IMG/VR virus record: IMGVR_UViG_3300048930_000447
Location: 1 to 47,636 of that record
Origin: a virus
Direction: 5' to 3' (one strand)
Length of the DNA stretch: 47,636 bases
Below, piece after piece: positions 11,674 to 47,322 of the stretch (its first letter is position 1; the number at the start of each line of letters is the position of its first letter). Under the pieces are notes generated by a model. It had not been told where the DNA came from, did not search any database, and saw only the letters and a program-made list of their open reading frames with translations. A program made the position numbers and the translations under genes.

Positions 11674-11988
11674 TTACAGCCTTTTGCAGGGCAGGTAGCC
11701 GACGGCCACGAGCGCACGGCCGCTGCTCAACAGCGCGCGGCCGCGCAGCCGGTAAGTGACGCCGTCGACACGCCCGCGGATGACCTGCAGCACGTCGGTG
11801 CCGCTGGGCACCGGCGCGCCCACGCGGACGGCGTCGGGGGCCGGATCGGTGCCGGACCAGGCATCGCAGGTGATGGCGACTTCGGTGATGGTTTCGCCGG
11901 CGACCATGGCGCGGCCGAATGCAAACGTCTGTACATCGATCTCGTCGACGTCGATAGCCGGCAAGGTCTGGCCGATGCGCAGTGTCAT
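11674..11988 (-). CDS. Small fibre/tail adaptor-like protein
   Basis: A 104-residue beta-rich protein: an acidic strand (AIDVDEIDVQTFAFG), then ITCDAWSGTDPAPDAVRV and a closing segment DGVTYRLRGRALLSSGRALVAVGYLP. The pattern resembles the short fibre-tail adaptor proteins next to fibre genes in other phages. The ATG at 11988 overlaps the stop of the large repeat protein (ATGA), which suggests the two products work together. Confidence 0.55.
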   Translation of the reverse strand: MTLRIGQTLPAIDVDEIDVQTFAFGRAMVAGETITEVAITCDAWSGTDPAPDAVRVGAPVPSGTDVLQVIRGRVDGVTYRLRGRALLSSGRALVAVGYLPCKRL

Positions 11989-14522
11989 GACATCACCTCG
12001 ATGGGGGGCCGCACAACCGCTGTGCAGACGATGGGGGAGCGGTGGCCGGCGCCAGGCAGCGAACCGAACAACGTGGCCGACGCGGACCCCAAGGCCTGCG
12101 CCTGCCCGGCCAGGTTGACCACGCCCACTTCGGTGAGCGTGCCCGAGGCGAGCGCCTGGGCTTGTGCGTCGCTGAGCAGCTGCACGCTGCCCTGCAGCGC
12201 GGCTGCGGCGCCGGACTGGGCCAGGGCAGCGGCCGACAGCGTGACCGTCAGGCCCAGCACGCCAGACGCCTGCGCCTGCGCCACCGCCGCGGCCGACAGC
12301 GGCACGCTCAGCCACAGCTGGCCGGTGGCTACCCCCTGCGCCGCGGCGTTGCCGGCCAGGCCATCGGAAGCCAGCGCACCGGCTGCGGTGACGGCGGCAA
12401 GTGCGGCGCCAAACAGCGGCACGCCGTGGGCCATCGCCGCTGTGGCCACCGCCTGGGCCACGGCGCCAGCGGCCAGCTCGATGCGCAGCGCCAGCGTGCC
12501 GCCCGCTGCAGCCTGGGCCAGCGACGCGCCCTGCAGCGTGACGGCGATGCTCAGGTTGCCGTTGGCCGCGGCCGCGGCAATGCTGCTGCCGCCCAGCGGC
12601 ACGGCATGCGTGACGGCGCCGCTGCCAATGGCCTGCGCGATGCCGGCGCCGAGCAGCGTGACGCCCAGGCTGATGGCGGCAGCAGCGGTAGCCTGCCCGG
12701 CGCCGGCGGCGGCTAGGTCGGCCTGGCCGCGCGCCGTGTACGCCTCGACGCGCGGCCGGAAGTAGCGTCCCACGCTGTACGGCCCGCGGCCAGGGCGTGG
12801 GCGCCGGCCGAACATCTCGGCCTCGGAGACCTGCACCACGATTTGCGCGGCAGCCGTAGCCTGCCCAGCAGCAGCGCCCTGCAGTGGAACCCCATGCGTC
12901 ATGCCCGCGGCGGCCGTGGCCTGGCCCGCGGCGGTGCCTGCCAGCGGAACCCCATGAGTCAGCCCGCCAGAAGCCGCCGCAACACCAGCCGCCGCCCCCT
13001 GCAGCGGCACACCGTGGCTGAGCCCGCCTGTGGCCGTGCCGGTGACGACAGCCGCGCCGGCCAGATCGACAGCGGTCGCAGCGCGCAGCCGCACCAGCAT
13101 GACGCCGCCCGACGAATTGCCGGCGCTGCCGGTGGCCGACATCGTGAACGTGACCGGGCCCGAGCCGCCGCCGGCAGTGACCTGCACTTCGCCGAGTTGG
13201 TAGGCCACGTCGTCGCCCGAGGTGGTGCCGGTCGGCCCCGCGCGGGAGTTGAACGTGCCGAAGGTGACGCCAGTAGCCGACAGGGTGTGCGCGCTGTGGC
13301 CCACCACGTCCAGATCGCTGTTCTTGGCGACGAACACCAGCACCGTGTCGCCGGCCGCCAGGTCCAGGCTGCCGGTGGTGATGTTCCAGTTGGCCGCCGC
13401 GACGCCCTGCGAGCCAGCGGCCGTGGCGATAACCCAGCCGGTGCCGCCGCTGCGGCTGAACGCGATGCTGCGGCTATACACCGCATTCCCGCCCGTGACG
13501 CTGATTGCCTCGGTGGCCGCGTCCTCGGTGCCGTCGCAGACCCGGTGGAACACCGTGGCGTACACGTCGCCCTGGTCCGCGCCGGCCGCGCCGCCGTCGC
13601 CCATCACGGCCTGCGCGGTCAGGCTATAGCCGGTAGGCGTGCCCGGCCCGTTCGTCGGGTACTTGTTGACCACGCACCACAGCGCCAGGTCAGTGTTCTC
13701 CAGCGTGTCCGGCTGGCGGAACAGCACCGACGACACGCCCGACTGCGGCACGCTGCTGAGCGAGCGGAAGGCGATGAGGCTGGCGCCACTGACCGAGACA
13801 TCGGCGGTCGCGTCGGCTGCCGCATCGGCGGCGCCTTGCAGGGGGACGCCGTGGGTGACTGCACCCGTGGCGGTGGCTTGGCCAGTTGCCCCACCTGCGA
13901 GCGGCACGCCGTGAGACAGGGCGCCGGCAGCCGCGCCCGCTGCCGTCGCATCGCCGTCCAGATCGACCGCCGTGCTGCCATAGTTGCCGCCCTCCCAAGA
14001 CGCAATCTTCGCCACCGAGGCGGCCGCGTCTTGGTACACCCCCATGCCCACATCGCCGCCGCTCAATACGGACGCTGTATCGGTGTAGCTGACGATCAGA
14101 ACGCCACCGACATAGCCCTTGAGCACGCGGTTCGCGCCGCTGACCTCAACCGTAAGTTCAACCTCCATCGGCACACTGCCGCCGTTGTTGAACGATCCAA
14201 CGTCGTCATCCACGTCGGTGGAGTTTTTCGTCAGCCACCAGTGATTGCCTGTGACGCTGAATGCATACTTATTGGAGCCGGAGCGCAGGCACTCAACGGT
14301 CCAATAGGTCTGGGCTCCCCCAGAGAGGCCCAGCGCATCTACGATGACGATCTTGCTGCGCTGGTTATTGCCGGTGGCCGCGCCGACATACACGTAACCG
14401 ATGTCATCCGTCGCCGCCGAAGGGCCGGCTTCGCCGCCAGACTGCGTGATCGTGCCGCTGCCGCGATTTTTGGACCACGGTGCGGCCAGCGACCCGGAGC
14501 CGTCAAAGGGATCACTGGCCAT
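11985..14522 (-). CDS. Large fibre-like protein with LamG-like domain and alanine-rich repeats
   Basis: An 845-residue protein. Residues 1-175 look like a LamG/concanavalin-type sandwich (TYWTVECLRSGSNKYAFSVT ... GVYQDAAASVAKIASWEG). A second beta domain lies at about 235-465. The flanks and the C-terminal half are a chain of about 20-residue Ala/Gly-rich repeats containing HGVPL six times and HAVPL once, followed by GAAAGQATA-like strings; a non-repeat basic insert (MFGRRPRPGRGPYSVGRYF) interrupts them. The repeats suggest an extended fibrous shaft. It probably faces outward on the virion, but the receptor or ligand is unknown. Confidence 0.65.
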   Translation of the reverse strand: MASDPFDGSGSLAAPWSKNRGSGTITQSGGEAGPSAATDDIGYVYVGAATGNNQRSKIVIVDALGLSGGAQTYWTVECLRSGSNKYAFSVTGNHWWLTKNSTDVDDDVGSFNNGGSVPMEVELTVEVSGANRVLKGYVGGVLIVSYTDTASVLSGGDVGMGVYQDAAASVAKIASWEGGNYGSTAVDLDGDATAAGAAAGALSHGVPLAGGATGQATATGAVTHGVPLQGAADAAADATADVSVSGASLIAFRSLSSVPQSGVSSVLFRQPDTLENTDLALWCVVNKYPTNGPGTPTGYSLTAQAVMGDGGAAGADQGDVYATVFHRVCDGTEDAATEAISVTGGNAVYSRSIAFSRSGGTGWVIATAAGSQGVAAANWNITTGSLDLAAGDTVLVFVAKNSDLDVVGHSAHTLSATGVTFGTFNSRAGPTGTTSGDDVAYQLGEVQVTAGGGSGPVTFTMSATGSAGNSSGGVMLVRLRAATAVDLAGAAVVTGTATGGLSHGVPLQGAAAGVAAASGGLTHGVPLAGTAAGQATAAAGMTHGVPLQGAAAGQATAAAQIVVQVSEAEMFGRRPRPGRGPYSVGRYFRPRVEAYTARGQADLAAAGAGQATAAAAISLGVTLLGAGIAQAIGSGAVTHAVPLGGSSIAAAAANGNLSIAVTLQGASLAQAAAGGTLALRIELAAGAVAQAVATAAMAHGVPLFGAALAAVTAAGALASDGLAGNAAAQGVATGQLWLSVPLSAAAVAQAQASGVLGLTVTLSAAALAQSGAAAALQGSVQLLSDAQAQALASGTLTEVGVVNLAGQAQALGSASATLFGSLPGAGHRSPIVCTAVVRPPIEVMS

Positions 14523-35538: not shown

Positions 35539-36270
35539 ATGCACCGCTACACCGCCCACGTCACAGCGCAAGAGCCGCCACCCGTAGTTCTTTGCGAGGG
35601 CCCACGCACCGCTGAAGCGTTGCGCGCCGCGCTCGCTCAGCGTGACACTGCCGCGCCGCCGCGGTGCACGGCGTGCGCGTGGTGCTTCAACCTGCCGGCG
35701 TTGGGCATCGCGCCGCACGACGGCGTGGCGCACTTCTGCCTGCACCCGAGCGTGTCTTCACCCTCGGTAGTGAACGGCTCGCCCACCTGCGTGCCATGCG
35801 ACGAGGTAAGGGCGGCCGAATGCGGGCCCGCCGGCACGCTGTTCAGCGCACGACGTTCAGCGCCGCAAACGTGCACAACGCGGCCAGGCCAAGGCCGAAG
35901 CACGCTGCCATGGCCAGCACCAGGATTCCGTGCAACGCTGGTACGGGCAGGCTCCAGCCTGCTTCAAGCGCTTGAGCGGTGGCTGCCTCGCCGCGCTGGG
36001 CCTTCATCTCCAGCAGCGCATTCGCCGTGTCCTGGCGGCTGCGGTACTGATACCGCAACGCCGCAAGGCCCGTGGCCACTGACAGAGCCAGGGCAGCCCA
36101 GGTCAACGCCAGCAGCCACGGCCACGCCGGCTGCTTCGGCACGTAGTGGCCCTGCAGGGCAACCGTCGCCGTCAACGCCGCGGTCGCCAGCGTCACCACC
36201 TGGCGAATCCAGCCGTAGTAAGGCGCTTCGTGTTCCAGCCAGTGGCGACGGATCACGTCGTCGACCGTGA
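35539..36270 (+). CDS. Cysteine-rich protein, probably with a truncated or replaced C-terminus
   Basis: The open frame codes for 243 residues, MHRYTAHVTAQEPPPVVLCE. Only about the first 100 look natural, with Cys pairs CTACAWC and CVPCDEVR and a lone CGPAGTLF. After about residue 103 it is composed of Pro/Ser/Arg-rich sequence that lies antisense to a membrane-protein gene (35843-36295), so the original 3' end was probably lost by recombination. Its N-terminus matches that of the 50-residue gene at 36330 over an 18-bp identical stretch. First gene after the rightward promoter. Confidence 0.45.
   Translation: MHRYTAHVTAQEPPPVVLCEGPRTAEALRAALAQRDTAAPPRCTACAWCFNLPALGIAPHDGVAHFCLHPSVSSPSVVNGSPTCVPCDEVRAAECGPAGTLFSARRSAPQTCTTRPGQGRSTLPWPAPGFRATLVRAGSSLLQALERWLPRRAGPSSPAAHSPCPGGCGTDTATPQGPWPLTEPGQPRSTPAATATPAASARSGPAGQPSPSTPRSPASPPGESSRSKALRVPASGDGSRRRP
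35547..35564 (+). repeat. 18-bp direct repeat, left copy
   Basis: CTACACCGCCCACGTCAC is identical to 36335-36352. Both copies encode YTAHVT at the N-terminus of a gene. Between the copies lies a reversed membrane-protein gene, which suggests recombination or duplication at this sequence. Confidence 0.85.
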
Positions 36271-36295
36271 CCGACTTTCGCCCCTCTTCCGCCAT
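35843..36295 (-). CDS. Inverted four-helix membrane protein, moron candidate
   Basis: A 150-residue protein, MAEEGRKSVTVDDVIRRHWL, then four hydrophobic segments (about residues 36-52, 59-80, 112-132 and 136-147 by eye: VVTLATAALTATVALQ, WPWLLALTWAALALSVATGLA, ALHGILVLAMAACFGLGLAA, LCTFAALNV). A ribosome site GAGGGA precedes the ATG at 36295. It is the only minus-strand gene inside the long rightward operon. The features fit a moron such as an exclusion or envelope protein; function unknown. Confidence 0.65.
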   Translation of the reverse strand: MAEEGRKSVTVDDVIRRHWLEHEAPYYGWIRQVVTLATAALTATVALQGHYVPKQPAWPWLLALTWAALALSVATGLAALRYQYRSRQDTANALLEMKAQRGEAATAQALEAGWSLPVPALHGILVLAMAACFGLGLAALCTFAALNVVR

Positions 36296-36329
36296 TCGAC
36301 CGTCCCTCGCCAGCCAAGGAGCAGCCATC

Positions 36330-36482
36330 ATGCCCTACACCGCCCACGTCACCCCGCGTGACGGCATCGTCAGACAGCACAGCCCGACGGCACCCGACCT
36401 GCACGCCGCGCACACGGCCGTGCAGCAACTCGCCAACCGCCGCTACGGCGCCGGCTTCACCTACAGCGTGAGGCAGGCATGA
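36330..36482 (+). CDS. 50-residue protein with YTAHVT N-terminus
   Basis: MPYTAHVTPRDGIVRQHSPT ends in TYSVRQA. A ribosome site AAGGAG lies 9 bases before the ATG. The N-terminus repeats that of the gene at 35539. Its stop overlaps the next start (ATGA). No function known. Confidence 0.6.
   Translation: MPYTAHVTPRDGIVRQHSPTAPDLHAAHTAVQQLANRRYGAGFTYSVRQA
36335..36352 (+). repeat. 18-bp direct repeat, right copy
   Basis: Identical to 35547-35564; it encodes the YTAHVT start of the 50-residue protein, just beyond the inverted membrane-protein gene. Confidence 0.85.
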
Positions 36483-36655
36483 GCTACAGCCCAGCCCACC
36501 TGCAACGCATGGCACGCCAGGCACTCGCGGCGCGCGCGCAGGGCGACCCTCGGTGGCTTCAGCTGGTGCTGACCCTCTCGTTGCGGCAGCACATCAGCCC
36601 CCGGCAGGTTGAGTTCGAGATCGAGCGCCTGGCGAACAGCGAGGTGCCGGCATGA
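36479..36655 (+). CDS. 58-residue helical protein upstream of DGR target 1
   Basis: MSYSPAHLQRMARQALAARA continues with QGDPRWLQLVLTLSLRQHIS and ends EFEIERLANSEVPA. It is joined to the 50-residue gene upstream and to DGR target 1 downstream by ATGA overlaps, so target 1 is translationally coupled to it. The composition is helical and amphipathic; no family recognised. Confidence 0.6.
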   Translation: MSYSPAHLQRMARQALAARAQGDPRWLQLVLTLSLRQHISPRQVEFEIERLANSEVPA

Positions 36656-37332
36656 GCACGGCGCACACCCCTGCCACCGCCGCCATCCAGCGCCGGCTCG
36701 AACGCTGGGAACTGCAGCACCTGCGCCTGCTAGCCGCCCAGCAGGCCGAGCAGATCGAAGAGCTGCAGCGCCGCGTGGCCTGGGCCGAAGATTGCGCCGA
36801 GCGCTGGCGCGACGACGCGCTCGACATGCAGGAGCAGTTGGCCGACAGCGCCGGCGGGCAGCCGGGCTTGACGATGGGCGGCCGGCTCGTGGTCCTCAAG
36901 CCGGAAGCAGACGCGGCCGCGAGCGTGCCCGCCATCGGCCAGCCCTGGCCAAGCATCGCCGGCAGCCTGTACGCCGGCATCGCAGTGGCCGAAGGCGATC
37001 AGCCTGATGGACACATCGTGCTGTTGCCCGACGAGCCGGCCAATCCGCTGTGCTGGCAAGACGCACTGAAGTGGGCGGAAGACCTGGGCCACGGGGCACA
37101 CGCCCCTATGCGGCACGAAAGCGCCCTGCTCTACGCAAACCTGCAAGGTCAGTTCGACCCGAGCGCTTGGTACTGGACCAGCACGGTGGCTGCCGGGGAT
37201 GGCTCGTACGCCTGGCGCCAGGACTTCTTCGACGGCAACCAGCTCAACCTCCACAAGAGCTATGAGGGCCGGGTCCGAGCCGTCCGCAGATTCGCGGTTC
37301 AGTCCTTCAATCCTTCAAGGCCAGCAGCATGA
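36652..37332 (+). CDS. DGR target protein 1, coiled coil plus C-type-lectin-like variable domain
   Basis: A 226-residue protein. Residues 1-65 are a coiled coil (LERWELQHLRLLAAQQAEQIEELQRRVAWAED). Residues about 105-215 form a DUF1566/C-type-lectin-like domain (HIVLLPDEPANPLCWQDALKWAEDLG ... SALLYANLQGQF ... WYWTSTV). The variable repeat covers residues 183-213 (GSYAWRQDFFDGNQLNLHKS then YEGRVRAVRR). Ten template adenines are substituted here relative to the template. No signal peptide is present. The coiled coil may multimerise it, unlike the two shorter paralogues. It lies 3.3 kb upstream of the other targets. Confidence 0.88.
   Translation: MSTAHTPATAAIQRRLERWELQHLRLLAAQQAEQIEELQRRVAWAEDCAERWRDDALDMQEQLADSAGGQPGLTMGGRLVVLKPEADAAASVPAIGQPWPSIAGSLYAGIAVAEGDQPDGHIVLLPDEPANPLCWQDALKWAEDLGHGAHAPMRHESALLYANLQGQFDPSAWYWTSTVAAGDGSYAWRQDFFDGNQLNLHKSYEGRVRAVRRFAVQSFNPSRPAA
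37200..37291 (+). repeat. DGR variable repeat VR1
   Basis: These 92 bases align without gaps to the template at 41955-42046. There are ten differences in the variable part, all at template A (for example AAC to CGC, GAC, TTC, CTC), plus the GT-for-TG swap near the 3' end. CAG codons and the AAG-AGC-TAT-GAG block are unchanged. A TCCTTCAATCCTTC element follows 11 bases later. Confidence 0.95.
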
Positions 37333-37363
37333 ACGATCTCAGCATCACCTCCAGGAGGCCGCA

Positions 37364-37696
37364 ATGAGCGCGGCCCTGCAGCGCCTCACCAAGTGGCGCA
37401 CCGTGTTCGCCGGCTGGCAGCTGGGCACGCGCGCCAAGGGAGACCCGGAGTCCGACGCCGTCAGGGACCACCGCGAGGTGACCATCCTGATGCGCAACGA
37501 GCTCAATGCGCTGGCCGGCCTGCTCATCGAAAAGGGCGTACTCACGGCCGAGGAGCACAAGCGCCGCCTGGACAGCGAGGCCGACTACCTGTCGGGCCAG
37601 TACGCCAAGAAGTTCCCAGGCTTCAAGGCCACCGACATCGGCATCGAGATGAACCCGGCAATCGCCGCGGACACCACGCGCGGGTGGCGGCCATGA
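37364..37696 (+). CDS. Small helical phage protein
   Basis: A 110-residue protein, MSAALQRLTKWRTVFAGWQL; a helical middle (ILMRNELNALAGLLIEKGVLTAEEHKRRLDSEADY) ends in GIEMNPAIAAD. A strong ribosome site CAGGAGG lies 6 bases before the ATG at 37364. A 12-codon mini-frame from 37329 overlapping the target 1 stop ends at this start. The end overlaps the lipoprotein gene (ATGA). Function unknown. Confidence 0.65.
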   Translation: MSAALQRLTKWRTVFAGWQLGTRAKGDPESDAVRDHREVTILMRNELNALAGLLIEKGVLTAEEHKRRLDSEADYLSGQYAKKFPGFKATDIGIEMNPAIAADTTRGWRP

Positions 37697-38235
37697 GCGC
37701 GCACCTCTTCGCCATCGAGCGTTGGGCTACGCGCGCACCGGCCATGCGCTGGCCGTTGGTGCTGCTGGCCCTGTTGCTGCTGGTCATGCTGGGCGGCTGC
37801 GGCGGCAGTGGCGCCCCCATTGCAGACGTCTACACCGGGCAATCCACCGCCCAGGCCGGCGACGCCGACACTGGCGCGGCCATTCTGGTGTTGCCGCTGC
37901 AGGGGCCGGCCCTCCAACTCGACCGGCCCGCGCAAATTCACGTTCGCTTGAAGGGCCACGTGCAGGTGTCGGCCCACTACAGCGCCAGCGGCACCGTCGC
38001 CATCGAGCTGGCGGCACCAGTGGCCACAGGCCCGAGCACCGTGCCCGTTGCACTCAGCCCGCAGGCAGCCACCACTGAACCCGTGGCCTACACCGCATGG
38101 CTGCAGCTTCCAGCCGGCACACACGCCCTGCAGGCGCTGCTGACGCTGCGCGCGCGCGATGCCCAGGCCGTGCCCACGGGGGCTCTGGCGCGCGCTGACG
38201 CTAGCGTGGCATGGCGCGTCGAGGTGCAACCGTGA
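37693..38235 (+). CDS. Lipoprotein in the rightward operon
   Basis: A 180-residue protein. A basic and hydrophobic leader (MRWPLVLLALLLLVMLGG) ends in lipobox LGGC with Cys36, followed by a beta-rich domain of Ser/Thr/Ala strands (VSAHYSASGTVAIELAAPV). Being an envelope protein in a putative early/lysogenic operon, it could change the host surface. ATGA overlap sets the start; a GTGA overlap links the next gene. Confidence 0.65.
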   Translation: MSAHLFAIERWATRAPAMRWPLVLLALLLLVMLGGCGGSGAPIADVYTGQSTAQAGDADTGAAILVLPLQGPALQLDRPAQIHVRLKGHVQVSAHYSASGTVAIELAAPVATGPSTVPVALSPQAATTEPVAYTAWLQLPAGTHALQALLTLRARDAQAVPTGALARADASVAWRVEVQP

Positions 38236-38783
38236 ACCCCCAGCCGCAGCGCCACCTGGTGCTGGCCTGGGCCAGCGGGCTTGCATCACGCTGGCCACAG
38301 ATCAACGCAGCAATCGACTCCGAACTACGCCACGACGCGTGCGCGCTGTCCGACCCCGGCACCGAATGCGTGCTCGGCCAGGTACTCGCCGCGCCCACGC
38401 GCCACCACACCGGATACCCCACCCCTCAGGAGCAACGCATGTCCGAAGGCCACCACCTGCCAGCGGCGCTGACCCAACCCGGCGAGCTGCCGCCCGCCAT
38501 CCCCTTTCCTGCGCGCCCGGCCAACGCCCGCGCCATGGCGCCCAGCAAGGCGACGGTCGAGCGCTGGGCGCGCCAGGCCCGGCAAATCGAAGACGCCCGC
38601 GCCGAAGGCCGGTCGCAAGGCCTGCAGATCGGCGACAAGCAGGGCTGGCGCCGCGGCGTCATCACCGGTGCCGTGTGCGCCGCCGTGCTCACCAGCCTGG
38701 GCTGGTCGGCGTACCTCAGCATCGCCGCGCCCGAGGTGGCGCCGCCTTCCGCCATGCGGCCCGCCGTGCCGGCCACCCTGTGA
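38232..38783 (+). CDS. Protein with one C-terminal membrane segment
   Basis: From the GTG at 38232 (GTGA overlap) the product is 183 residues; a second start at ATG 38439 with ribosome site CAGGAG gives 115 residues, MSEGHHLPAALTQPGELPPA. The C-terminal part has a helical KATVERWARQARQIEDARAE region and a membrane segment GVITGAVCAAVLTSLGWSAYL near residue 150-170. The first 69 residues have a coding-like composition, so these may be one gene or two fused in frame. Function unknown. Confidence 0.55.
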   Translation: MNPQPQRHLVLAWASGLASRWPQINAAIDSELRHDACALSDPGTECVLGQVLAAPTRHHTGYPTPQEQRMSEGHHLPAALTQPGELPPAIPFPARPANARAMAPSKATVERWARQARQIEDARAEGRSQGLQIGDKQGWRRGVITGAVCAAVLTSLGWSAYLSIAAPEVAPPSAMRPAVPATL

Positions 38784-39013
38784 TGCTGGCCACCGCGCAA
38801 CCTGTCGAGCGCATGCCCGTGCGCTTTGCCAGCGCCGACCTGTACCGCGCCTGCACGCTGTGCGACCACGGCCCCAGCCGCGGCGGCCCAGCCGGCAGCT
38901 GCACGCTCAACCCGCGGGACCCGGTGCCCATCAGCCTGGCGCGTCTGCGCGACGGCATCTGCGGCCCCGAGGCCGCGCACATGCGCGTCGGCGGATGGGA
39001 CTTCATCAGCTGA
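38783..39013 (+). CDS. Small cysteine-containing protein
   Basis: A 76-residue protein. RACTLCDHGPSRGGPAGSCT and GICGPEAAHMR carry four Cys in a spacing compatible with zinc binding. The start overlaps the previous stop by one base (TGATG). Similar in style to the Cys-rich proteins at 175 and 35539. Confidence 0.6.
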   Translation: MLATAQPVERMPVRFASADLYRACTLCDHGPSRGGPAGSCTLNPRDPVPISLARLRDGICGPEAAHMRVGGWDFIS

Positions 39014-39018
39014 CGGCC

Positions 39019-39240
39019 ATGAGCCGGCCGACACCGCCCACCGATGAGCAGCTGCGGCTGGCGTGGCGGCAGATCAGCCGGCCCAGCTGGCCCAGCACTC
39101 TGGAAGAGGCGCTGGAGAACCCGCTCTACCGCACCTGCCTCATCGGCATCGACCGCAACCTCAATCGCCGCGGCATGGACCGCCGGCCCGCGCCCAAGGC
39201 GCCGCCCTCGCTGCCACTGTTTGAAGGAATCGACCCATGA
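39019..39240 (+). CDS. Hypothetical 73-residue protein
   Basis: MSRPTPPTDEQLRLAWRQIS followed by RPSWPSTLEEALENPLYRTC and a Pro-rich end. Five bases separate it from the preceding gene, and its stop overlaps the next start (ATGA). Probably a DNA- or protein-interaction adaptor by size; no family recognised. Confidence 0.55.
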   Translation: MSRPTPPTDEQLRLAWRQISRPSWPSTLEEALENPLYRTCLIGIDRNLNRRGMDRRPAPKAPPSLPLFEGIDP

Positions 39241-39518
39241 GCCACAACGATCTGATGACCCCCATCCAGCTGGCTGAGCTGGCCCACCAGCTGGCCGACC
39301 GCGCCTGCATCAGCGACATCGAGGTCCACGCCCATGCGCAGACCGACGACCTGGGCCGCAAGTGGTACGACACGCGGCCGCTGTTCGACCCGAACGAGCA
39401 GCCCGACGACTTCATCGAGATGAACCTGCAGGCGCTGGCCTACGCGCACGAGCGCGGCCTGATCAGCCCGCACCCCGTGCACACGCACCTGGTGCGCATC
39501 GTCAAGGCCGGGGCATGA
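39237..39518 (+). CDS. Hypothetical 93-residue protein
   Basis: MSHNDLMTPIQLAELAHQLA; the body includes DIEVHAHAQTDDLGRKWYDT and a helical LQALAYAHERGLI. Acidic, soluble, chained by ATGA overlaps on both sides. No function known. Confidence 0.55.
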   Translation: MSHNDLMTPIQLAELAHQLADRACISDIEVHAHAQTDDLGRKWYDTRPLFDPNEQPDDFIEMNLQALAYAHERGLISPHPVHTHLVRIVKAGA

Positions 39519-39835
39519 CCGCGACCACCAGTTGGCCGCGCGAGGCCGAAGACCGTGTGAACTCACTGCTGGGTCAGGTGGCTGCCAAGGAGCTGGAGTG
39601 CCAACGCCTCCGGGAAGCGACCCGAGCTGGCCCCACCGGCACCGAGGCCCGCGTGTGCGCCGACATCGCCGCACGCCAGCAGCTGGGCCTGCGCAAGTAC
39701 GGCATCAGCGTCGAGGGCAACCCGCTGACGCTGCGCGAGTGGCTGCAGCACGCCTACGAGGAAACGCTCGACCAGGCCATCTACCTGCGGCGATCGATCG
39801 AGCAGATCGACCTCGAGCTGGGCAACGCGCCATGA
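39515..39835 (+). CDS. Conserved small phage protein with KYG..LTLREWLQHAYEE motif
   Basis: A 106-residue protein. Its second half, ARQQLGLRKYGISVEGNPLT followed by LREWLQHAYEETLDQAIYLR, is a recurring motif in short phage proteins of the early region (often linked to MazG-like or nucleotide-related neighbours). No catalytic residues are obvious. ATGA overlaps on both sides. Confidence 0.6.
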   Translation: MTATTSWPREAEDRVNSLLGQVAAKELECQRLREATRAGPTGTEARVCADIAARQQLGLRKYGISVEGNPLTLREWLQHAYEETLDQAIYLRRSIEQIDLELGNAP

Positions 39836-40326
39836 GCCGCCGCGCACGCGCGCGCTTCGACCGGCGCGTCATCCTCAACCCGGTGGCCGTGGCGATCGAG
39901 GGCGCGCAGAAGCTGTGCGTCAAGGACCGCAGCAACCTGCAGCGCATCGTCGACCTGGCCCTGCAGGCCTTCCGCACCGGCCACGACTGCGCCGCCCAGT
40001 GGCGCAACATGGCCGACGCCCTCAACACCGCCGAGTCGCTGGCCAGGGTCGGCATCGCCAGCGACGACGCCAGCCGCGACCGCATCGACGCCGCGCAGCG
40101 CGTGCTGGCCGACGTGCACCAGCGTCACGCCGAGCGCGGCAGCTGGACGCTGCGCGGGCCCGAGCTGCAGGCGCTTGACGACGGGCTGTGGGTCTTCCGC
40201 GTGCAGCTCGAGCACTGCAGCCTCGGCGAATTCGAGCGCGCCCGCCGCGACTGCACCGAGCGCATCCGCCAGGCGCGGGCCGGCAACGCGCCCGCCGGCG
40301 CGCGGCTGGTCGAAGGACACGCATGA
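39832..40326 (+). CDS. Hypothetical helical 164-residue protein
   Basis: Basic N-terminus MSRRARARFDRRVILNPVAV, then an all-helical body (LQRIVDLALQAFRTGHDCAAQWRNMADALN) and EFERARRDCTERIRQAR near the end. It ends in an ATGA overlap. The overall pattern resembles small helical accessory proteins of unknown role. Confidence 0.55.
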   Translation: MSRRARARFDRRVILNPVAVAIEGAQKLCVKDRSNLQRIVDLALQAFRTGHDCAAQWRNMADALNTAESLARVGIASDDASRDRIDAAQRVLADVHQRHAERGSWTLRGPELQALDDGLWVFRVQLEHCSLGEFERARRDCTERIRQARAGNAPAGARLVEGHA

Positions 40327-40571
40327 GCCACGACGACGATTCGCCCCGCAGCGCCACCGAGATCGGCGTGGGCCTGGCCCAGGCCTGCGCGCCCGCCTTC
40401 GCGGCCATGTCCATGACGCTCGACGACGCCGAGCGCATCGAGTTCCTTCGCGCCTTCCTCTGCACCTGCAGCGGCATGGTGCAGCAATCCGTCGGCCACG
40501 CCACCACCCGCGAGCTGTTCGAGTTCGTCGCGCAGCTGAAGCCTGTGGAGCCGCTGCAGCGCATGCAGTAG
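40323..40571 (+). CDS. Hypothetical 82-residue protein upstream of DGR target 2
   Basis: MSHDDDSPRSATEIGVGLAQ with a helical AERIEFLRAFLCTCSGMVQQ. It ends 54 bases before DGR target 2. Helical, with three cysteines (two in the CTC pair). Function unknown. Confidence 0.55.
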   Translation: MSHDDDSPRSATEIGVGLAQACAPAFAAMSMTLDDAERIEFLRAFLCTCSGMVQQSVGHATTRELFEFVAQLKPVEPLQRMQ

Positions 40572-40625
40572 CAGCACGCCCTTCATCCCAACCGGGCCGC
40601 AAGCCCACCACCAGGAGCACACCCC

Positions 40626-40997
40626 ATGCGATTTTCCGATCTGCCCGCCCTCGGGCAGCCCCTAGACGCCGGCCTGTTCGCCGGCATCACCACCACGCCC
40701 GACGGCAAGCACCACGCCGTGGTGCTGCTGCCCGACAAGCCCGATGCCAAGCTCACCTGGCAGAAGGCCGTGAACTGGGCCAAGAAGCTCGACGCCACGC
40801 TGCCGGCCCGCCCCGTGGCCGCGCTGCTGTTCGCCAACGCCAAGGACCAGTTCGAGCCCGAGTGGCACTGGACGTCGGAAGCCTTCGATGGCTCGTGCGC
40901 CTGGGTCCAGGACTTCGGCTACGGCTACCAGAGCTACGACCGCAAGAGCTATGAGGGCCGGGTCCGAGCCGTCCGCTTGATTCAACTCACCGCTTGA
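40626..40997 (+). CDS. DGR target protein 2, DUF1566/C-type-lectin-like
   Basis: A 123-residue protein that is essentially one variable-lectin domain: HHAVVLLPDKPDAKLTWQKAVN, then ALLFANAKDQFEPEWHWTSE and the variable part at residues 88-117 (GSCAWVQDFGYGYQSYDRKS then YEGRVRAVR). Twelve template adenines are substituted here. A ribosome site CAGGAG precedes the ATG. It is a paralogue of target 3, 25 bp upstream of it. No signal peptide or coiled coil, so it may assemble with another protein or act in the cytoplasm. Confidence 0.88.
   Translation: MRFSDLPALGQPLDAGLFAGITTTPDGKHHAVVLLPDKPDAKLTWQKAVNWAKKLDATLPARPVAALLFANAKDQFEPEWHWTSEAFDGSCAWVQDFGYGYQSYDRKSYEGRVRAVRLIQLTA
40889..40976 (+). repeat. 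DGR variable repeat VR2
   Basis: These 88 bases align to the template from its first base to GTCCGC without gaps. There are twelve adenine-position substitutions (for example TAC to TGC, AAC to GTC, GGC, TAC, AGC), none elsewhere in the variable part, plus the shared GT-for-TG swap. Identity stops at GTCCGC, four bases earlier than in VR1 and VR3. Confidence 0.95.
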
Positions 40998-41022
40998 TCC
41001 TTCAATCCTTCAGGAGCACACG

Positions 41023-41397
41023 ATGCGCACCATCACCGTCGCAGCCGCGACCATCGAACTGCAGGACGGCGAGCACTACGCCGGCCTGATCCTCAACGCC
41101 GACGGCACGCCCAGCCACCACCTGGTGCTGCGGCCCGAGGCCGATAAGCGCATGCCCTGGCAGGCCGCCGTCGAGCTGGCCAAGGACCAGGGCGGCACCC
41201 TGCCCACGCGGCAGGAGCAGGCGCTGCTGTTCGCCAACCTGAAGGACCAGTTCAAGGCCGCCTGGTACTGGTCCAACGAAGAGTATGAAGGCGATGGCTC
41301 GTACGCCTGGGGCCAGGGCTTCTACGACGGCAACCAGCTCGACGGCCGCAAGAGCTATGAGGGCCGGGTCCGAGCCGTCCGCAGATTGACCGCTTGA
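41023..41397 (+). CDS. DGR target protein 3, DUF1566/C-type-lectin-like
   Basis: A 124-residue protein similar in layout to target 2: HLVLRPEADKRMPWQAAVEL, PTRQEQALLFANLKDQFKAA, WYWSNEE, then the variable part at residues 91-121 (GSYAWGQGFYDGNQLDGRKS then YEGRVRAVRR). Twelve template adenines are substituted. A ribosome site CAGGAG lies 8 bases before the ATG. It ends 20 bp before the avd-like gene. Tandem with target 2, indicating local duplication of the target. Confidence 0.9.
   Translation: MRTITVAAATIELQDGEHYAGLILNADGTPSHHLVLRPEADKRMPWQAAVELAKDQGGTLPTRQEQALLFANLKDQFKAAWYWSNEEYEGDGSYAWGQGFYDGNQLDGRKSYEGRVRAVRRLTA
41295..41386 (+). repeat. DGR variable repeat VR3
   Basis: These 92 bases align to the whole template without gaps; twelve substitutions, all at A, plus the shared GT-for-TG swap. 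A TCCTTCAATCCTTC element follows 11 bases later, the same spacing as after VR1. Confidence 0.95.
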
Positions 41398-41417
41398 TCC
41401 TTCAATCCTTCTGAGCC

Positions 41418-41783
41418 ATGGCCCTGCACACCGACCTGCCGATCTACCGCACCGGCGTGAAGCTGCTCGCCCTTGCCATCAAGGTACAGCAGCAGATGCC
41501 GCGCGGCGTCAAGCGATCGCTGGGCGACAAGATCAGCACGCACATCACCGAGATGCTCGACCTCATGGCGATGGCCAACGCCACGCAGCATGCCGAGCGC
41601 GCAGCGCACATCGAAGGGCTGATGAAGCACCTGCGCGCCACCACGGTGCTGCTGCGCGTCAGCCATGACAGCCGCTTCGTGTCGCCCCAGCTGTGGGGCG
41701 AGTCGGTGCAGCTGCTCGACAGCATCGGCCGGCAGGGCGGGGGCTGGCTCAAGAGTGCAGCGAACAGGGCGCCTGCAGCATGA
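41418..41783 (+). CDS. avd: Accessory variability determinant (Avd-like)
   Basis: A 121-residue protein, close to the Bordetella phage Avd (128). The helical pattern (GVKLLALAIKVQQQMPRGVK ... DKISTHITEMLDLMAMANATQ ... AAHIEGLMKHLRATTVLLRV) fits the pentameric four-helix-bundle accessory protein that binds the reverse transcriptase and template RNA. It lies between target 3 and the template repeat, the usual DGR order. Its stop overlaps an ATG at 41780 in the reverse-transcriptase frame. Confidence 0.85.
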   Translation: MALHTDLPIYRTGVKLLALAIKVQQQMPRGVKRSLGDKISTHITEMLDLMAMANATQHAERAAHIEGLMKHLRATTVLLRVSHDSRFVSPQLWGESVQLLDSIGRQGGGWLKSAANRAPAA

Positions 41784-41954
41784 CGGTCAAGGCCCTCATG
41801 CCCGTGCGCAATTTGAATCTGGTCGTGCCGCTGGCCCACGAGGCCACCGCCATGCGCACCACGGACACCGCTGCCCACGTGCAGGACCGGTCCGGCGCAG
41901 TCGCCCCGCTGATCGGCGCAAGCCTTCGGAGCGGCGACGTAGATAGCACGACAG

Positions 41955-42046
41955 TGGCTCGTACGCCTGGAACCAGAACTTCAACAACGGCAACCAGAAC
42001 AACAACCACAAGAGCTATGAGGGCCGGTGCCGAGCCGTCCGCAGAT
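41955..42046 (+). repeat. DGR template repeat TR
   Basis: The 92-base donor for the three variable repeats. Read in the target frame it is GSYAWNQNFNNGNQNNNHKS then YEGRCRAVRR, with eight AAC codons. AAC can change at A to 15 amino acids without making a stop codon. It lies between avd and the reverse transcriptase and overlaps the first ten codons of the latter. The 171 bases between the avd stop and the TR (41784-41954) are probably part of the template RNA. Confidence 0.95.
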
Positions 42047-43138
42047 CCTGACCTGTTCCACCAGCTGGTGCTGGCCTACCTGGACTGCCGCCGCACCAAG
42101 CGCAACAGCGACAGCGCCCTGGCCTTCGAGGCGCGCCTCGAGGCCAACCTGGTCGACCTGCACGACCGCCTGGCCGACGGCAGCTACCGGCCCGGCCGCA
42201 GCATCTGCTTCGTCGTCCAGCAGCCCCGCGTGCGCGAGGTGTGGGCCGCCACCTTCGGCGACCGCGTGGTGCATCACCTGCTGTACAACCGCATCGCACC
42301 GCGCTTCATCGCGCGGTTCACGGCCGACAGCTGCGCCTGCATTCCCGGGCGCGGCACCCTGTACGCGGCGCGCCGCCTGGAACACCAGGTGCGCAGCGCC
42401 ACCGCCAACTGGACGCGGCCGGCGCACTACCTGAAGTGCGACCTGGCCAACTTCTTTGTGTCCATCAACAAGCGCGTGCTCTTCGAGCAGCTGGCGCGCC
42501 ACGTCACCGAGCCGTGGTGGCTGCGCCTGGCCGAGACCGTGCTGATGCACGACCCGCGCGCCGATGTCGAGATGCGCGGCCGCGCCGAGCTGCTGCAGCG
42601 CGTGCCACCGCACAAGAGCCTGTTCAACGCGCCGGCCCACAAGGGCCTGCCCATCGGCAACCTGAGCAGCCAGTTCTTCGCCAACGTGCTGTTGAACGAT
42701 CTGGACCAGCGCGTCAAGCACCGGCTGCAGGCGCCGCACTTCGTGCGCTACGTCGACGACTGCGTGCTGGTGCACGAGTCGCCCGACTGGTTGAACGCGG
42801 CACTGGCCGACATCAGCGCCTGGCTGCCGACGCAGCTGGACCTGCAGCTGAACCCGCGCAAGACCATCCTGCAGCCGGTGGACCGCGGCATCGACTTCGT
42901 CGGCCACGTGCTCAAGCCGCACTGGCGCCGCACGCGGCCCGGCACCGTGGCCCGCGCCGGCGACCGCATGCACCGCATGCCAGCTGATGACGTGCACCCG
43001 TCGGCCAACAGCTACTTCGGCCTGTTCCGCCAGGCCACCCACAGCCACGCCGACCGCGCGGCGCTCGCCAATGCCGTGAGGCGGCGCGGGCACTGCGTCA
43101 ACAGCGCCTTTACCAAGACCTTTCGCAAAGGAGCCTAA
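42017..43138 (+). CDS. DGR reverse transcriptase
   Basis: A 373-residue protein. Motif A is YLKCDLANFF (Asp142), the DGR-specific motif 4 is IGNLSSQ (residues 213-219; the usual RT form is QG) and the catalytic box is YVDD (245-248), followed by LNPRKTILQ and FVGHVLKP. It copies the template RNA into adenine-mutagenised cDNA. I start at ATG 42017, inside the TR. The same frame is open back to an ATG at 41780 that overlaps the avd stop, so a 79-residue longer form is possible. Three bases separate it from the ParB-like gene. Confidence 0.95.
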   Translation: MRAGAEPSADPDLFHQLVLAYLDCRRTKRNSDSALAFEARLEANLVDLHDRLADGSYRPGRSICFVVQQPRVREVWAATFGDRVVHHLLYNRIAPRFIARFTADSCACIPGRGTLYAARRLEHQVRSATANWTRPAHYLKCDLANFFVSINKRVLFEQLARHVTEPWWLRLAETVLMHDPRADVEMRGRAELLQRVPPHKSLFNAPAHKGLPIGNLSSQFFANVLLNDLDQRVKHRLQAPHFVRYVDDCVLVHESPDWLNAALADISAWLPTQLDLQLNPRKTILQPVDRGIDFVGHVLKPHWRRTRPGTVARAGDRMHRMPADDVHPSANSYFGLFRQATHSHADRAALANAVRRRGHCVNSAFTKTFRKGA

Positions 43139-43140
43139 CC

Positions 43141-45003
43141 ATGGACGCGATCACCATGCTGTCCGTCGACACGTTGCACGAATCGCCCTTCAACCCGCGC
43201 AAGATCTTCGACGACGCGCCCTTGCAGGAACTGGCCGCTGACATCAAGAGCGTCGGCCGCGTGCTGCAGCCGCTGCTGGTGCGCCCGCGCATCCCGCCGC
43301 TGTTCGGCAACGACCCTGAAGCCGCCGCTGGCCACGAGATCGTCTTCGGCCACCGACGCTACCGCGCCGCCATGCTGGCCGGGCTGGCCGAGGTGCCGTG
43401 CATGGTGCGCGCCATGGCCGACGACGAAGCCCGGCGCGCGCAGATCAGCGAGAACCTGCAGCGCACCGACGTGCACCCCATCGAAGAGGCCGAGGGCTAC
43501 CAGGCGCTGATAGACCAGGACGGCCAGACGGCCGACAGCGTCGCCGAGCAGTTCGGCAAGAGCCGCAGCTACGTGTACGGCCGGCTCAAGCTGCTGCAGG
43601 CCTGCCCCGAGATCCGCAAGGCCTGCCTGGCCGGCGAGGTAGGCGCTGAGGTGGCGCTGCTCATCGCGCGGCTGCGCACCTCCAAGCTTCAGGAGAAGGC
43701 GCTGGGGTACATCCGCGCCGACCACCGCGCCAAGCTCGACGACGGCGGCAAGGCGAGCTTTCGCACCATCCGCGACCTGCTGGCCGAGAAATTCACGCTC
43801 GACCTCAAGGGCGCGATGTTCGACGTGGCCGACGAGATGCTGCTTCCGCTGGCCGGTAACTGCATCACCTGCCCCAAGCGCAGCGCCAACGCCCCCGAAT
43901 ACGCTGACCTGGTGGAGAACACCACCACGCGCTGGGGCATGTCCAAGCCGGGCAGTGCAAACGCCTGCACCGACCCCGACTGCTGGGACGCCAAGAAGAA
44001 GGCGCACCTCAAGCGCGAGGCCGACAAGCTGGCCGGCGCCGGCAAGGTGGTGGTCGATGGCACCGCGGCACGCAACAGCATCAGCGCGCGCGGCGAGATC
44101 AAGGGCGCGTATGTGGCGCTGGCCGACGTGCAGGCTGCGCTGAAGCAGCAGTACGACAAGGCCAAGACGGCGTCCGCGATGGTCAAGGCCAAGCCCACGG
44201 TGGTGCTGATCCAGGACCCGCGCACCGGCAAGACCCACAAGGCCGTCAAGCGTACCGACCTGCAGGCCGCTGGCGTCAAGGTCACCGACGCCTCGGCGCA
44301 GGGCAGCGCGGCCGCCAGCGCTGCGCACGAGGCGCGCCGCAAAGCCGAGCGAGAGGCAGCCGAGGCGAAGGTCAAGCTCGAGTGCCAACTACGCCGGGCG
44401 GTGCTCAGCGACATCCGCGACCAGATTCTCGGCCGCGAGCGCGACGCCTTCGACCTGCAACTGGTGGCACAAGCCGCCTGGCGCGGCGTCGAGTGGCGCG
44501 CCCGCAACCTGATAGCCGAGCTGTGGGGCTTCAAGAGCGAGCACGAGCTCGACAAGCGCATCGGCCAGATGGACCTGCAGCAGCTCCCCCTGTTCGTCAT
44601 GGACTGCGCGATCGCGCCCGATTGCGTGGTGGAGTCCTACTCGCTCGACCGCAAGCCGACCACCCTGCTGCAGGCGGCCAAGCACTACGGCGTCGACGTG
44701 GACCAGGTACGCGCCGAGGTGGCGAAGAACGCTTCTACCCCTTCACCCGCTGCGCGGGCTGCAAACAAGGCGGCGCCGGCTGCGCGCGGCGTTCGGTACT
44801 GTTGCCCGGACACCGGCTCGACCTGGTCGGGCAAGGGGTTGCAGCCGGCGTGGTTGAAAGCCGCGCTGGCCAAGGGCCGCACCCTGGCCGACTTTGACCT
44901 CAAGGCCACGGCCGCCATGGCGGCCGAGAAACAGACCGACGACGCCGGCGTTGCCGGCGGGTGCGGCGCGCCTGTCGACGCGCTTGAGGAAACCGAAGCA
45001 TGA
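43141..45003 (+). CDS. ParB-like protein with C-terminal H-NS-type domain
   Basis: A 620-residue protein. The N-terminal ParB/RepB/Spo0J domain (LHESPFNPRKIF, HEIVFGHRRYRAAMLAGLAE, RRAQISENLQRTDVHPIEEA, then a helix-turn-helix TADSVAEQFGKSRSYVYGRL) is followed by a Cys-containing middle (CITCPKRS, ACTDPDCWD) and a long Lys/Ala-rich helix. Residues about 550-586 (VRYCCPDTGSTWSGKGLQ followed by PAWLKAALAKGRTLADF) match the H-NS C-terminal DNA-binding signature. It may bind or bridge phage or host DNA. It follows the reverse transcriptase at three bases. Confidence 0.85.
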   Translation: MDAITMLSVDTLHESPFNPRKIFDDAPLQELAADIKSVGRVLQPLLVRPRIPPLFGNDPEAAAGHEIVFGHRRYRAAMLAGLAEVPCMVRAMADDEARRAQISENLQRTDVHPIEEAEGYQALIDQDGQTADSVAEQFGKSRSYVYGRLKLLQACPEIRKACLAGEVGAEVALLIARLRTSKLQEKALGYIRADHRAKLDDGGKASFRTIRDLLAEKFTLDLKGAMFDVADEMLLPLAGNCITCPKRSANAPEYADLVENTTTRWGMSKPGSANACTDPDCWDAKKKAHLKREADKLAGAGKVVVDGTAARNSISARGEIKGAYVALADVQAALKQQYDKAKTASAMVKAKPTVVLIQDPRTGKTHKAVKRTDLQAAGVKVTDASAQGSAAASAAHEARRKAEREAAEAKVKLECQLRRAVLSDIRDQILGRERDAFDLQLVAQAAWRGVEWRARNLIAELWGFKSEHELDKRIGQMDLQQLPLFVMDCAIAPDCVVESYSLDRKPTTLLQAAKHYGVDVDQVRAEVAKNASTPSPAARAANKAAPAARGVRYCCPDTGSTWSGKGLQPAWLKAALAKGRTLADFDLKATAAMAAEKQTDDAGVAGGCGAPVDALEETEA

Positions 45004-45996: not shown

Positions 45997-46244
45997 CCCT
46001 GCCCTACTTCACCGACGCCGAGGTCGACGACATGTGCGCCGGCCTGGTGCAAGACGCCGCCAAGGTGCGCCACCTGCGCAAGCTGGGCCTCAAGGTCGAC
46101 CGCAAGCCCAACGGCAAGCCGCTGGCCTGGCGCCCCGCGGCCGAGCCGGCGGCGCAGAATGCGGCCAGCGCCCCCAACATCGTCGGCCTGAAGGCCTGGG
46201 CGCAGCAAAGGGGGCAACGTGGGCAGAAAACGCAAGGACGGTGA
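45993..46244 (+). CDS. DUF4224 family protein
   Basis: An 83-residue protein: YFTDAEVDDMCAGLVQDAAK followed by VRHLRKLGLKVDRKPNGKPL, the DUF4224 pattern. Such proteins lie directly upstream of integrases, and this one overlaps the integrase start by 26 bp, suggesting an excisionase-like or regulatory helper; that role is inferred. Confidence 0.8.
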   Translation: MTLPYFTDAEVDDMCAGLVQDAAKVRHLRKLGLKVDRKPNGKPLAWRPAAEPAAQNAASAPNIVGLKAWAQQRGQRGQKTQGR

Positions 46245-47322
46245 CCCGCTGGGCCTGGCCGGCACCCGGCTGGCCTTCAGGCGCGGCAAGTTCTGGTACC
46301 GCCACCGCGGCACGCCCGAGCGGTGGCAGGACATGGGCACCGACCCCGCCCTGGCCAAGCGCCGCGCCATGCAGTACGAGCAGCCCGGCAGCAGCTACGG
46401 CACCGTGGCCTACTGGTTCGCGCTGTTCCTGGCCGACTGCCAGCGCCGCGCCGCGGCCGGCAAGATGAGCGCGCGCACCGTGGCCGACTACACCGGCTAC
46501 GCCGCCGAAGGCGGGCCGCTGCTCATCACCTTCGGCCCCATGCAGCCGCAGGACATCAAGCCCAACCACGTGCAGCAGTACCTGGACGAAGGCGCCACAT
46601 GCGGCCGCCCCACCCCGGCCAACCGCGAGCGGGCATGCCTGTCGTCCATGCTGTCGTGGTTGCTGCGCCAGCCCGAATGCCCGGGCGACTTCGTCGTCAA
46701 CCCCTGCATGCAGAAGAGCGGCGTGGTGCGCAACCAGGAATCGAAGCGCGAGCGCTACGTCACGCACCAGGAATACCGCGACGTGTGGGCCGTGGCATCG
46801 CGCTCCGAGCAGCTGCTGATGGCGCTGACCTACCGCACCCTGCAGCGGCCCGACAGCGACATCATCCGCTGGACCACCGCCATCGTGGTGCAAGACGCCG
46901 CCGGCGGCCGCGCGCTGCAGTTCCGCCAGAACAAGACCGGCCGGCTGTGCCGCATCGCCCTGGGGCCCGACCTCGAGCCGTTGATCCCGCGGCCCGTGGG
47001 CAACGTGCGCAAGCTGCACGAGCCACTGGTCAAGCGGCTGGACGGCCAGGCCTACACGTACAGCGGCATCGCGTCGATGCTGCGCGAGTCGATCAAGGTG
47101 GCCAACGAACGGCGCCTGGCGCGCAAGCAGGCGCCGATGGAGTCCTTCGGCTTCCGCGACCTGAAGGGCAAGGGCGCCACCGACATGTACTTCATCGAGC
47201 GCAACCCCGTGCAGCAGATCCAGCAGCTGCTGGGGCATGCCAACGTCACCACCACCGAGATCTACATCAAGGCCCGGTGGCGCGAAACCGCACAGCCCAA
47301 CAGCGTGAACCTGGGTGTCTGA
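46219..47322 (+). CDS. int: Tyrosine integrase
   Basis: A 367-residue site-specific recombinase. Catalytic residues by position: Arg210 (RTLQRPDSD), Lys239 (FRQNKTG), the FRDLK box with Arg313/Lys316 in place of the usual HxxR, His340 (LLGHANVTT) and nucleophile Tyr349 (TTEIYIKARW). The N-terminal arm-binding part is basic (GRKRKDGDP). It starts at a GTG with a strong AAAGGGGG ribosome site, overlapping the DUF4224 gene. It ends 135 bp before attR, where arm-type repeats lie. It should integrate into the 3' end of tRNA-Asn. Confidence 0.93.
   Translation: MGRKRKDGDPLGLAGTRLAFRRGKFWYRHRGTPERWQDMGTDPALAKRRAMQYEQPGSSYGTVAYWFALFLADCQRRAAAGKMSARTVADYTGYAAEGGPLLITFGPMQPQDIKPNHVQQYLDEGATCGRPTPANRERACLSSMLSWLLRQPECPGDFVVNPCMQKSGVVRNQESKRERYVTHQEYRDVWAVASRSEQLLMALTYRTLQRPDSDIIRWTTAIVVQDAAGGRALQFRQNKTGRLCRIALGPDLEPLIPRPVGNVRKLHEPLVKRLDGQAYTYSGIASMLRESIKVANERRLARKQAPMESFGFRDLKGKGATDMYFIERNPVQQIQQLLGHANVTTTEIYIKARWRETAQPNSVNLGV

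Follow-up and report, generated by a model that had tools for sequence, protein, structure and literature searches.

The diversity-generating retroelement (DGR) of BPP-1, the described system with which our locus is compared throughout, comprises Avd, a template repeat (TR), a reverse transcriptase (RT) and a variable repeat (VR) placed at the 3' end of a C-type-lectin gene. Substitution in this system is adenine-specific, TR and VR show an IMH/IMH* difference, and an RNA duplex joins a structured RNA to the 3' end of the TR. The structured RNA is a 144-nt priming spacer located 3' of the TR, which in our Rfam comparison corresponds to RF03022 (Phage_DGR). The diversified gene, mtd, lies beside the tail genes, and a GC-rich hairpin is required downstream of the VR (PMC3240598).

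DGRs with more than one VR have also been described; in two surveys they make up about 1/7 (PMC3521204) and 28.6% (PMC6642488) of DGRs. The multi-VR DGRs presented there (DiGReF Table 2, including Pseudomonas fluorescens WH6, and the G2/G4 cassettes) likewise combine one TR with several paralogous targets; the passages of these papers that were examined describe neither the RNA architecture nor the acceptor element reported below. Burkholderia phage Magia and Pseudomonas phages Haboob and Cruim01 carry RTs of the same clade as ours (63-64% identical), also in the early arm of the genome. As in our locus, lectin-fold targets are annotated in Magia and RT-15 in Cruim01, and the annotations of all three phages are without a description of a permuted RNA or of an iterated acceptor element.

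The element reported here was found in the window, by which we mean the whole stretch of DNA that was analysed, an IMG/VR virus record 47,636 bases long. It is a member of a widespread DGR clade, and a permuted-RNA variant in which the structured RNA stands 5' of the TR.

Results

Components of the DGR

The following features were assigned in the window (coordinates, strand, description and basis).

36652-37332, plus strand: T1, the remote target gene (226 aa), with a C-terminal C-type-lectin (Lcl_C/DUF1566-like) domain (Pfam Lcl_C, E 3e-6, under the curated cut-off) and an N-terminus matching phrog_6525
37200-37291, plus strand: VR1 (identity-only repeat search, TR comparison)
37298-37316, plus strand: iterated element 3' of VR1, TTCAGTCCTTCAATCCTTC (sequence reading, family statistics)
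40626-40997, plus strand: T2, target gene (123 aa; Pfam Lcl_C, E 4e-5, under the cut-off; phrog_4245)
40889-40980, plus strand: VR2 (identity-only repeat search, TR comparison)
40994-41011, plus strand: iterated element 3' of VR2, TTGATCCTTCAATCCTTC (sequence reading, family statistics)
41023-41397, plus strand: T3, target gene (124 aa) with a predicted C-type-lectin fold (AF2, Foldseek)
41295-41386, plus strand: VR3 (identity-only repeat search, TR comparison)
41394-41411, plus strand: iterated element 3' of VR3, TTGATCCTTCAATCCTTC (sequence reading, family statistics)
41418-41783, plus strand: avd (121 aa; phrog_3206, PHROG 'Avd protein of DGR', E 3e-22)
41767-41958, plus strand: RT-15 structured RNA (RF03018), directly 5' of the TR (Rfam match)
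41812-41821, plus strand: 5' strand of the predicted long-range helix, single-stranded in the RT-15 model (pairing and covariation tests)
41955-42046, plus strand: TR (repeat family, TR-VR comparison)
42028-42029, plus strand: IMH*-like dinucleotide TG, which is GT in all three VRs (TR-VR comparison)
42042-42051, plus strand: 3' strand of the predicted long-range helix, formed by CAGAT of the TR end and the next five bases (pairing and covariation tests)
42059-43138, plus strand: RT, conserved part, start codon not fixed (phrog_1423, E 1e-109)

The first-pass annotation had called a DGR from an Avd-like gene, a TR, an RT with the IGNLSSQ and YVDD motifs and three genes ending in VRs, and all of these were recovered. 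The RT carries LPIGNLSSQ and RYVDD, leaving the catalytic YVDD intact, and its nearest solved structure is 8ub7 ('Reverse transcriptase', E 1e-29). Avd was also matched by Pfam bAvd (E 1e-8), at 35.6 bits, below the cut-off of 40. The TR and the three VRs emerged as one four-member repeat family in a search based on identity only and blind to adenines, with copies 82-92% identical to the reference copy; no further TR/VR copies were found when the whole record was searched. The window thus holds a complete DGR, with Avd, TR, RT and three VR genes.

Number and history of the targets

Relatives were collected by RT searches, which gave 451 related viral-contig stretches, the best 80 of these 451 being kept, together with 80 genome loci; a second viral scan contributed 77 more loci. 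Targets were counted in the 192 clade loci with more than 5 kb of sequence before the RT. Two targets were present in 121 loci, three in 52, four in 4 and one in 13, with none detected in 2, so that at least two targets occur in about 92% of the clade loci with enough upstream sequence and three in 27%. The usual layout is the same tandem target pair upstream of Avd; in most loci the two near targets precede the RT by about 1.25 and 0.78 kb. The claim of a multi-target layout therefore stands as regards three targets sharing one template, but not as regards its being unusual, since two or more targets are the rule in the clade. The three-target layout is of a known and ordinary kind.

The annotation had further recognized the genes at 40626 and 41023 as tandem paralogues, which we also find, and had taken them as a sign that the target set grew by duplication. 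Outside the VR the three window targets share 44-51% mutual identity, with T1 no more distant from T2 (51%) than T3 is (45%). Across the clade, position-matched targets were clearly closer to each other than crossed ones only where the RTs of the two loci were about 75% or more identical, which argues that the tandem pair is old. On these sequence comparisons the pair is ancestral in the clade and not a recent duplication, so the window element holds no record of a recent expansion. A division of the targets into two family-wide clades, proximal and distal, was rejected (best split 0.24).

Fold and genomic location of the targets

The structure of T3 was predicted by AF2 with a pLDDT of 95.9 from a 43-sequence alignment and of 47.5 from the single sequence, and the best Foldseek matches of the model were the C-terminal domain of Legionella Lcl (top) and C-type-lectin domains. 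As in BPP-1, then, the VR lies at the 3' end of a gene with a (here predicted) C-type-lectin fold. The targets of the clade are small stand-alone proteins, with a median of 160-195 aa.

In the window, the minus strand below about 33 kb carries the head, tail, lysis and replication genes. The integrase gene occupies 46219-47322, and the cassette is in the plus-strand arm between the two. Whereas mtd of BPP-1 lies beside the tail genes, the three targets of this temperate, siphovirus-like phage are thus situated in its early arm (repressor to integrase). The same arrangement was seen in annotated relatives: in Magia, Haboob, Cruim01 and phPA-G the cassette lies between repressor and integrase, in QDWS it stands a few genes before the integrase, and its surroundings include nucleases, recombinases, methylases or anti-restriction genes. 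An early gene location is compatible with target proteins that join the virion.

One possible explanation is a multi-target phage DGR of the ordinary kind: the targets would be small receptor-binding proteins of the virion and would be encoded in the early arm by chance. We consider this quite possible, if a little short of an even chance. Most viral DGR targets carry a tail-protein annotation (PMC8144416), and surface binding is a property of C-type-lectin folds; however, the cassettes of the relatives recur between repressor and integrase or beside the integrase, near the gene classes listed above, and the targets are small and stand alone over the whole clade. The location suggests instead a role outside the virion.

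A structured RNA 5' of the template

RT-15 (RF03018) matched the window over its full length, with 173.8 bits against a gathering score of 82, and ends where the TR begins; it was the only match in an Rfam scan of positions 36000-44000. The RNA was also found 5' of the TR in all three other loci tested (L050, L139 and L227). Its own pairs, counted on 44 loci, covary to an extent that 0 of 500 shuffles reached. In the distant single-target locus L238 it is a different RNA, RT-14, that is present, 3' of the TR.

In the clade, 8-58 nt separate the TR end from the first conserved RT residue (224 loci) as against 182-219 nt in L238-L243. A spacer hidden in the RT codons after the TR was sought through synonymous conservation; no clear excess was seen, and thus no sign of a 3' spacer. 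The window accordingly has its structured RNA 5' of the TR and no detected counterpart of the BPP-1-type 3' structured priming spacer.

The TR is nested in an open reading frame that continues into the RT. In the window this frame is open from 41693, with in-frame ATG codons at 42017, inside the TR, and at 41780, overlapping the avd stop. No ATG, GTG or TTG occurs between the TR and the RT domain in 180 of the 224 loci; 23 of these 180 have an in-frame stop within the TR, and start inside it. Judged from the reading frames, the RT must start inside or before the TR in most relatives. TRs that overlap an end of the RT ORF are already known as DiGReF group 3 (PMC3521204).

A long-range helix between RT-15 and the TR 3' end

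The TR end CAGAU finds its complement in a conserved unpaired strand of RT-15, GAAUCUGG (window 41815-41822), and pairing extends past the TR. Since the motif and the helix register had first been picked by eye in the alignment, shuffles, shifted registers, a tree-based count and an agnostic scan were run afterwards. At the seven flanking positions a mean of 3.80 were paired, compared to 3.00 (sd 0.10) after shuffling. Helix position 7 (41815 with 42048 in the window) was paired in 94% of 139 unique loci, as against 46% in shuffles (maximum 57%), and this by way of different pairs (GC 68, UA 34, CG 16). On the RT tree, 48 pair-preserving double changes were counted in register and 2-11 when the register was shifted by 1-4. 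An independent count on 44 loci found changes on both sides in 7 of the 10 helix pairs, with a covariation score reached by 0 of 500 shuffles, and 82% of helix cells were paired in register as opposed to 27-47% when slid. In a corrected mutual information scan of 3256 position pairs a pair of the helix ranked first (0.58, the next being 0.21). In the window itself 8 of 10 positions are paired, the mismatches being A-C and U-U. Taken together, these tests give the predicted helix between RT-15 and the TR 3' end good support. As far as the literature examined goes, this covarying pairing is an addition to the description of RT-15 (RF03018); a limited literature search found no publication that joins 'RT-15' with 'diversity-generating', and an earlier link may exist.

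The helix strand also marks a boundary in the repeats, as TR-VR homology stops at it, and adenines tallied 22 to 9 nt before it were substituted in only 3-18% of cases. BPP-1 served as a control; its Sp48-54, immediately 5' of primer A56, complements TR 123-129. Unlike there, no adenine directly follows the proposed primer strand in the window. Relatives of BPP-1 keep GUGUGGUCA opposite UGAC..ACAC-like TR ends, which gives partial support for an equivalent helix in the BPP-1 clade, several positions being misaligned. The distant single-target DGRs L238-L242 gave a noisy picture of complementarity to the TR 3' end and were left out here.

Both systems would thus share an RNA duplex between structured RNA and TR 3' end, and plausibly the helix is the same functional duplex as that of BPP-1 with the order of its strands permuted: in BPP-1 the 3' spacer does this job, hence our description of the window RNA as permuted. 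The helix may accordingly serve in priming. A limited literature search found no account of DGR priming other than by the BPP-1 RNA, with its spacer 3' of the template.

Two other functions were considered for these RNA elements. RT-15 might act as a riboregulator that governs RT translation by pairing near the RT start, setting template RNA and RT messenger in competition, with priming taking place in some other way. A frame that starts inside or before the TR in most loci would fit this, since a helix formed where TR and RT meet could stand in the way of ribosomes; but the helix strand sits at the TR 3' boundary while the possible RT starts vary and often lie upstream of it, and a comparable duplex is found at the known priming site in the BPP-1 clade. 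We regard this as unlikely. Similarly improbable, in our judgement, is that the functions of RT-15 are limited to ending cDNA synthesis and holding the complex, priming being left to a nicked target or to an undetected element in the RT-coding region. RT-15 does begin at the avd end, where a motif of BPP-1 terminates reverse transcription (PMC12875486), and a target-primed model was earlier proposed for BPP-1 (PMC3240598). Termination alone, however, predicts no covariation with the TR 3' end, and a conserved signal after the TR was not found.

An iterated element after the VRs

An element of three TT motifs spaced by 8-9 bp follows the VR in 83% of 406 unique targets (threshold: a score of 8.5 or more out of 9), compared to 4% after the TR and 1% of shuffles. 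The TT motifs in the window are spaced by 8 and 8 at T1 and by 7 and 8 at T2 and T3. It is this element that stands in the window where BPP-1 has its GC-rich hairpin; no GC-rich stem of 6 or more pairs was found within 90 nt of any window VR. Outside the window's subgroup, about 36% of targets have such a stem. We infer that the iterated element has a role in the choice of acceptors.

Substitution pattern and activity

As in BPP-1, substitution is adenine-specific: over TR positions 1-73 all 34 TR-to-VR substitutions (10+12+12 over the three VRs) fall at template adenines. The non-A difference common to all three VRs is TG>GT at TR positions 74-75, which is IMH/IMH*-like, and VR2 also differs from the TR in its final four bases. 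Clade-wide, in 444 TR-VR pairs aligned with symmetric scoring that does not favour A, template A was substituted in 41% of cases, compared to 0.6% for C, 1.2% for G and 1.3% for T.

It had been proposed at the outset that diversity confined to template adenines in related elements would speak for activity, and VR differences specific to A were indeed observed among close clade relatives. Between L023/L024 and L026, whose RT regions are identical, differences in the near-target VR affect 13 of 27 template-A sites, as against 1 of 64 non-A sites, and none of the 200 upstream bases differs; for L035 and L055 the respective values are 14 of 28, 0 of 66 and 3 of 200. No near-identical relative of the window element was found among the loci kept from the RT searches, where the closest RT is that of L085, from a Burkholderiales genome bin (88% identical). 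It is very improbable that the window element is a decaying, inactive copy, since, although VR turnover of this exact element was seen in no near-identical relative, its RT, Avd and all three targets remain open reading frames and zero non-A changes have accumulated at TR 1-73 in any VR.

Discussion

The reading that we favour, and hold to be probable, is that of an early-arm DGR in which a duplex between RT-15 and the TR 3' end starts cDNA synthesis, permuted with respect to BPP-1, and in which the iterated element helps to mark acceptors. A single RNA would carry, in this order, RT-15, the TR and the first part of the RT gene. Folded 5' of the TR, RT-15 would use its single-stranded GAAUCUG to pair with the TR 3' end and a few bases beyond, which would place an RNA duplex at the TR 3' boundary. 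RT-Avd may then start at this duplex and copy the TR into adenine-mutagenised cDNA, which would replace the VRs at the 3' ends of the three small C-type-lectin genes, the iterated element of about 8 bp, located after each VR and absent after the TR, helping to mark them as acceptors. The products would presumably be diversified recognition proteins.

As far as the literature examined goes, the permuted RNA with its covarying TR 3' duplex, the nesting of the TR within the RT frame and the iterated element that follows the VRs are new. The clade is widespread: one viral scan gave 451 related stretches, and many genomes of Burkholderiales and Pseudomonas belong to it as well. With the structured RNA before the template and not after it, such a clade would show that what is essential in the DGR RNA is the duplex at the TR 3' end and not the order of the parts. 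The window DGR also offers a compact diversifier, with one template and several targets.

The early-arm targets raise the question of what benefit hypermutation brings to early, non-tail proteins. A bolder reading, which we advance tentatively and hold to be clearly short of an even chance, is that these elements form a distinct DGR class, with a 5' RT-15 that positions the primer on the TR 3' end, a TR nested in the RT frame and acceptors marked by iterated elements, which diversifies sets of early intracellular lectin-fold proteins and not tail receptors. If this were true, temperate phages would diversify early proteins, for example to recognise components of the host or of rival phages.

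Genes in the DGR and head/tail regions

The gene adjoining the reverse transcriptase (RT) on its downstream side (43141-45003) encodes a ParB-like protein, the C-terminal part of which (residues 552-585) was matched in Pfam to the H-NS DNA-binding domain (PF00816, E 6.8e-11); the product is predicted to be a phage-encoded ParB/H-NS fusion. A lipoprotein-like gene (37693-38235), its product having a hydrophobic N-terminus that closes with GGCGGSG, lies between the remote target and the tandem targets, and an 845-aa protein with repeated THGVPLAG-like units is encoded on the minus strand (11985-14522), flanked by head/tail genes. Neither of these two had a match in a PHROG search.

Variable repeats in related loci

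GC-rich hairpins with CTTG, GCA or GTA loops were found 3' of the variable repeat in about one third of targets (loci L069, L132 and L150 among them), as compared to only about 5% in the window's subgroup. When the related loci L023 and L024 were compared to L026, 13 template-adenine sites differed in the target nearer to the RT and 1 in the distal target, suggesting that targets sharing one template may be edited at unequal rates.
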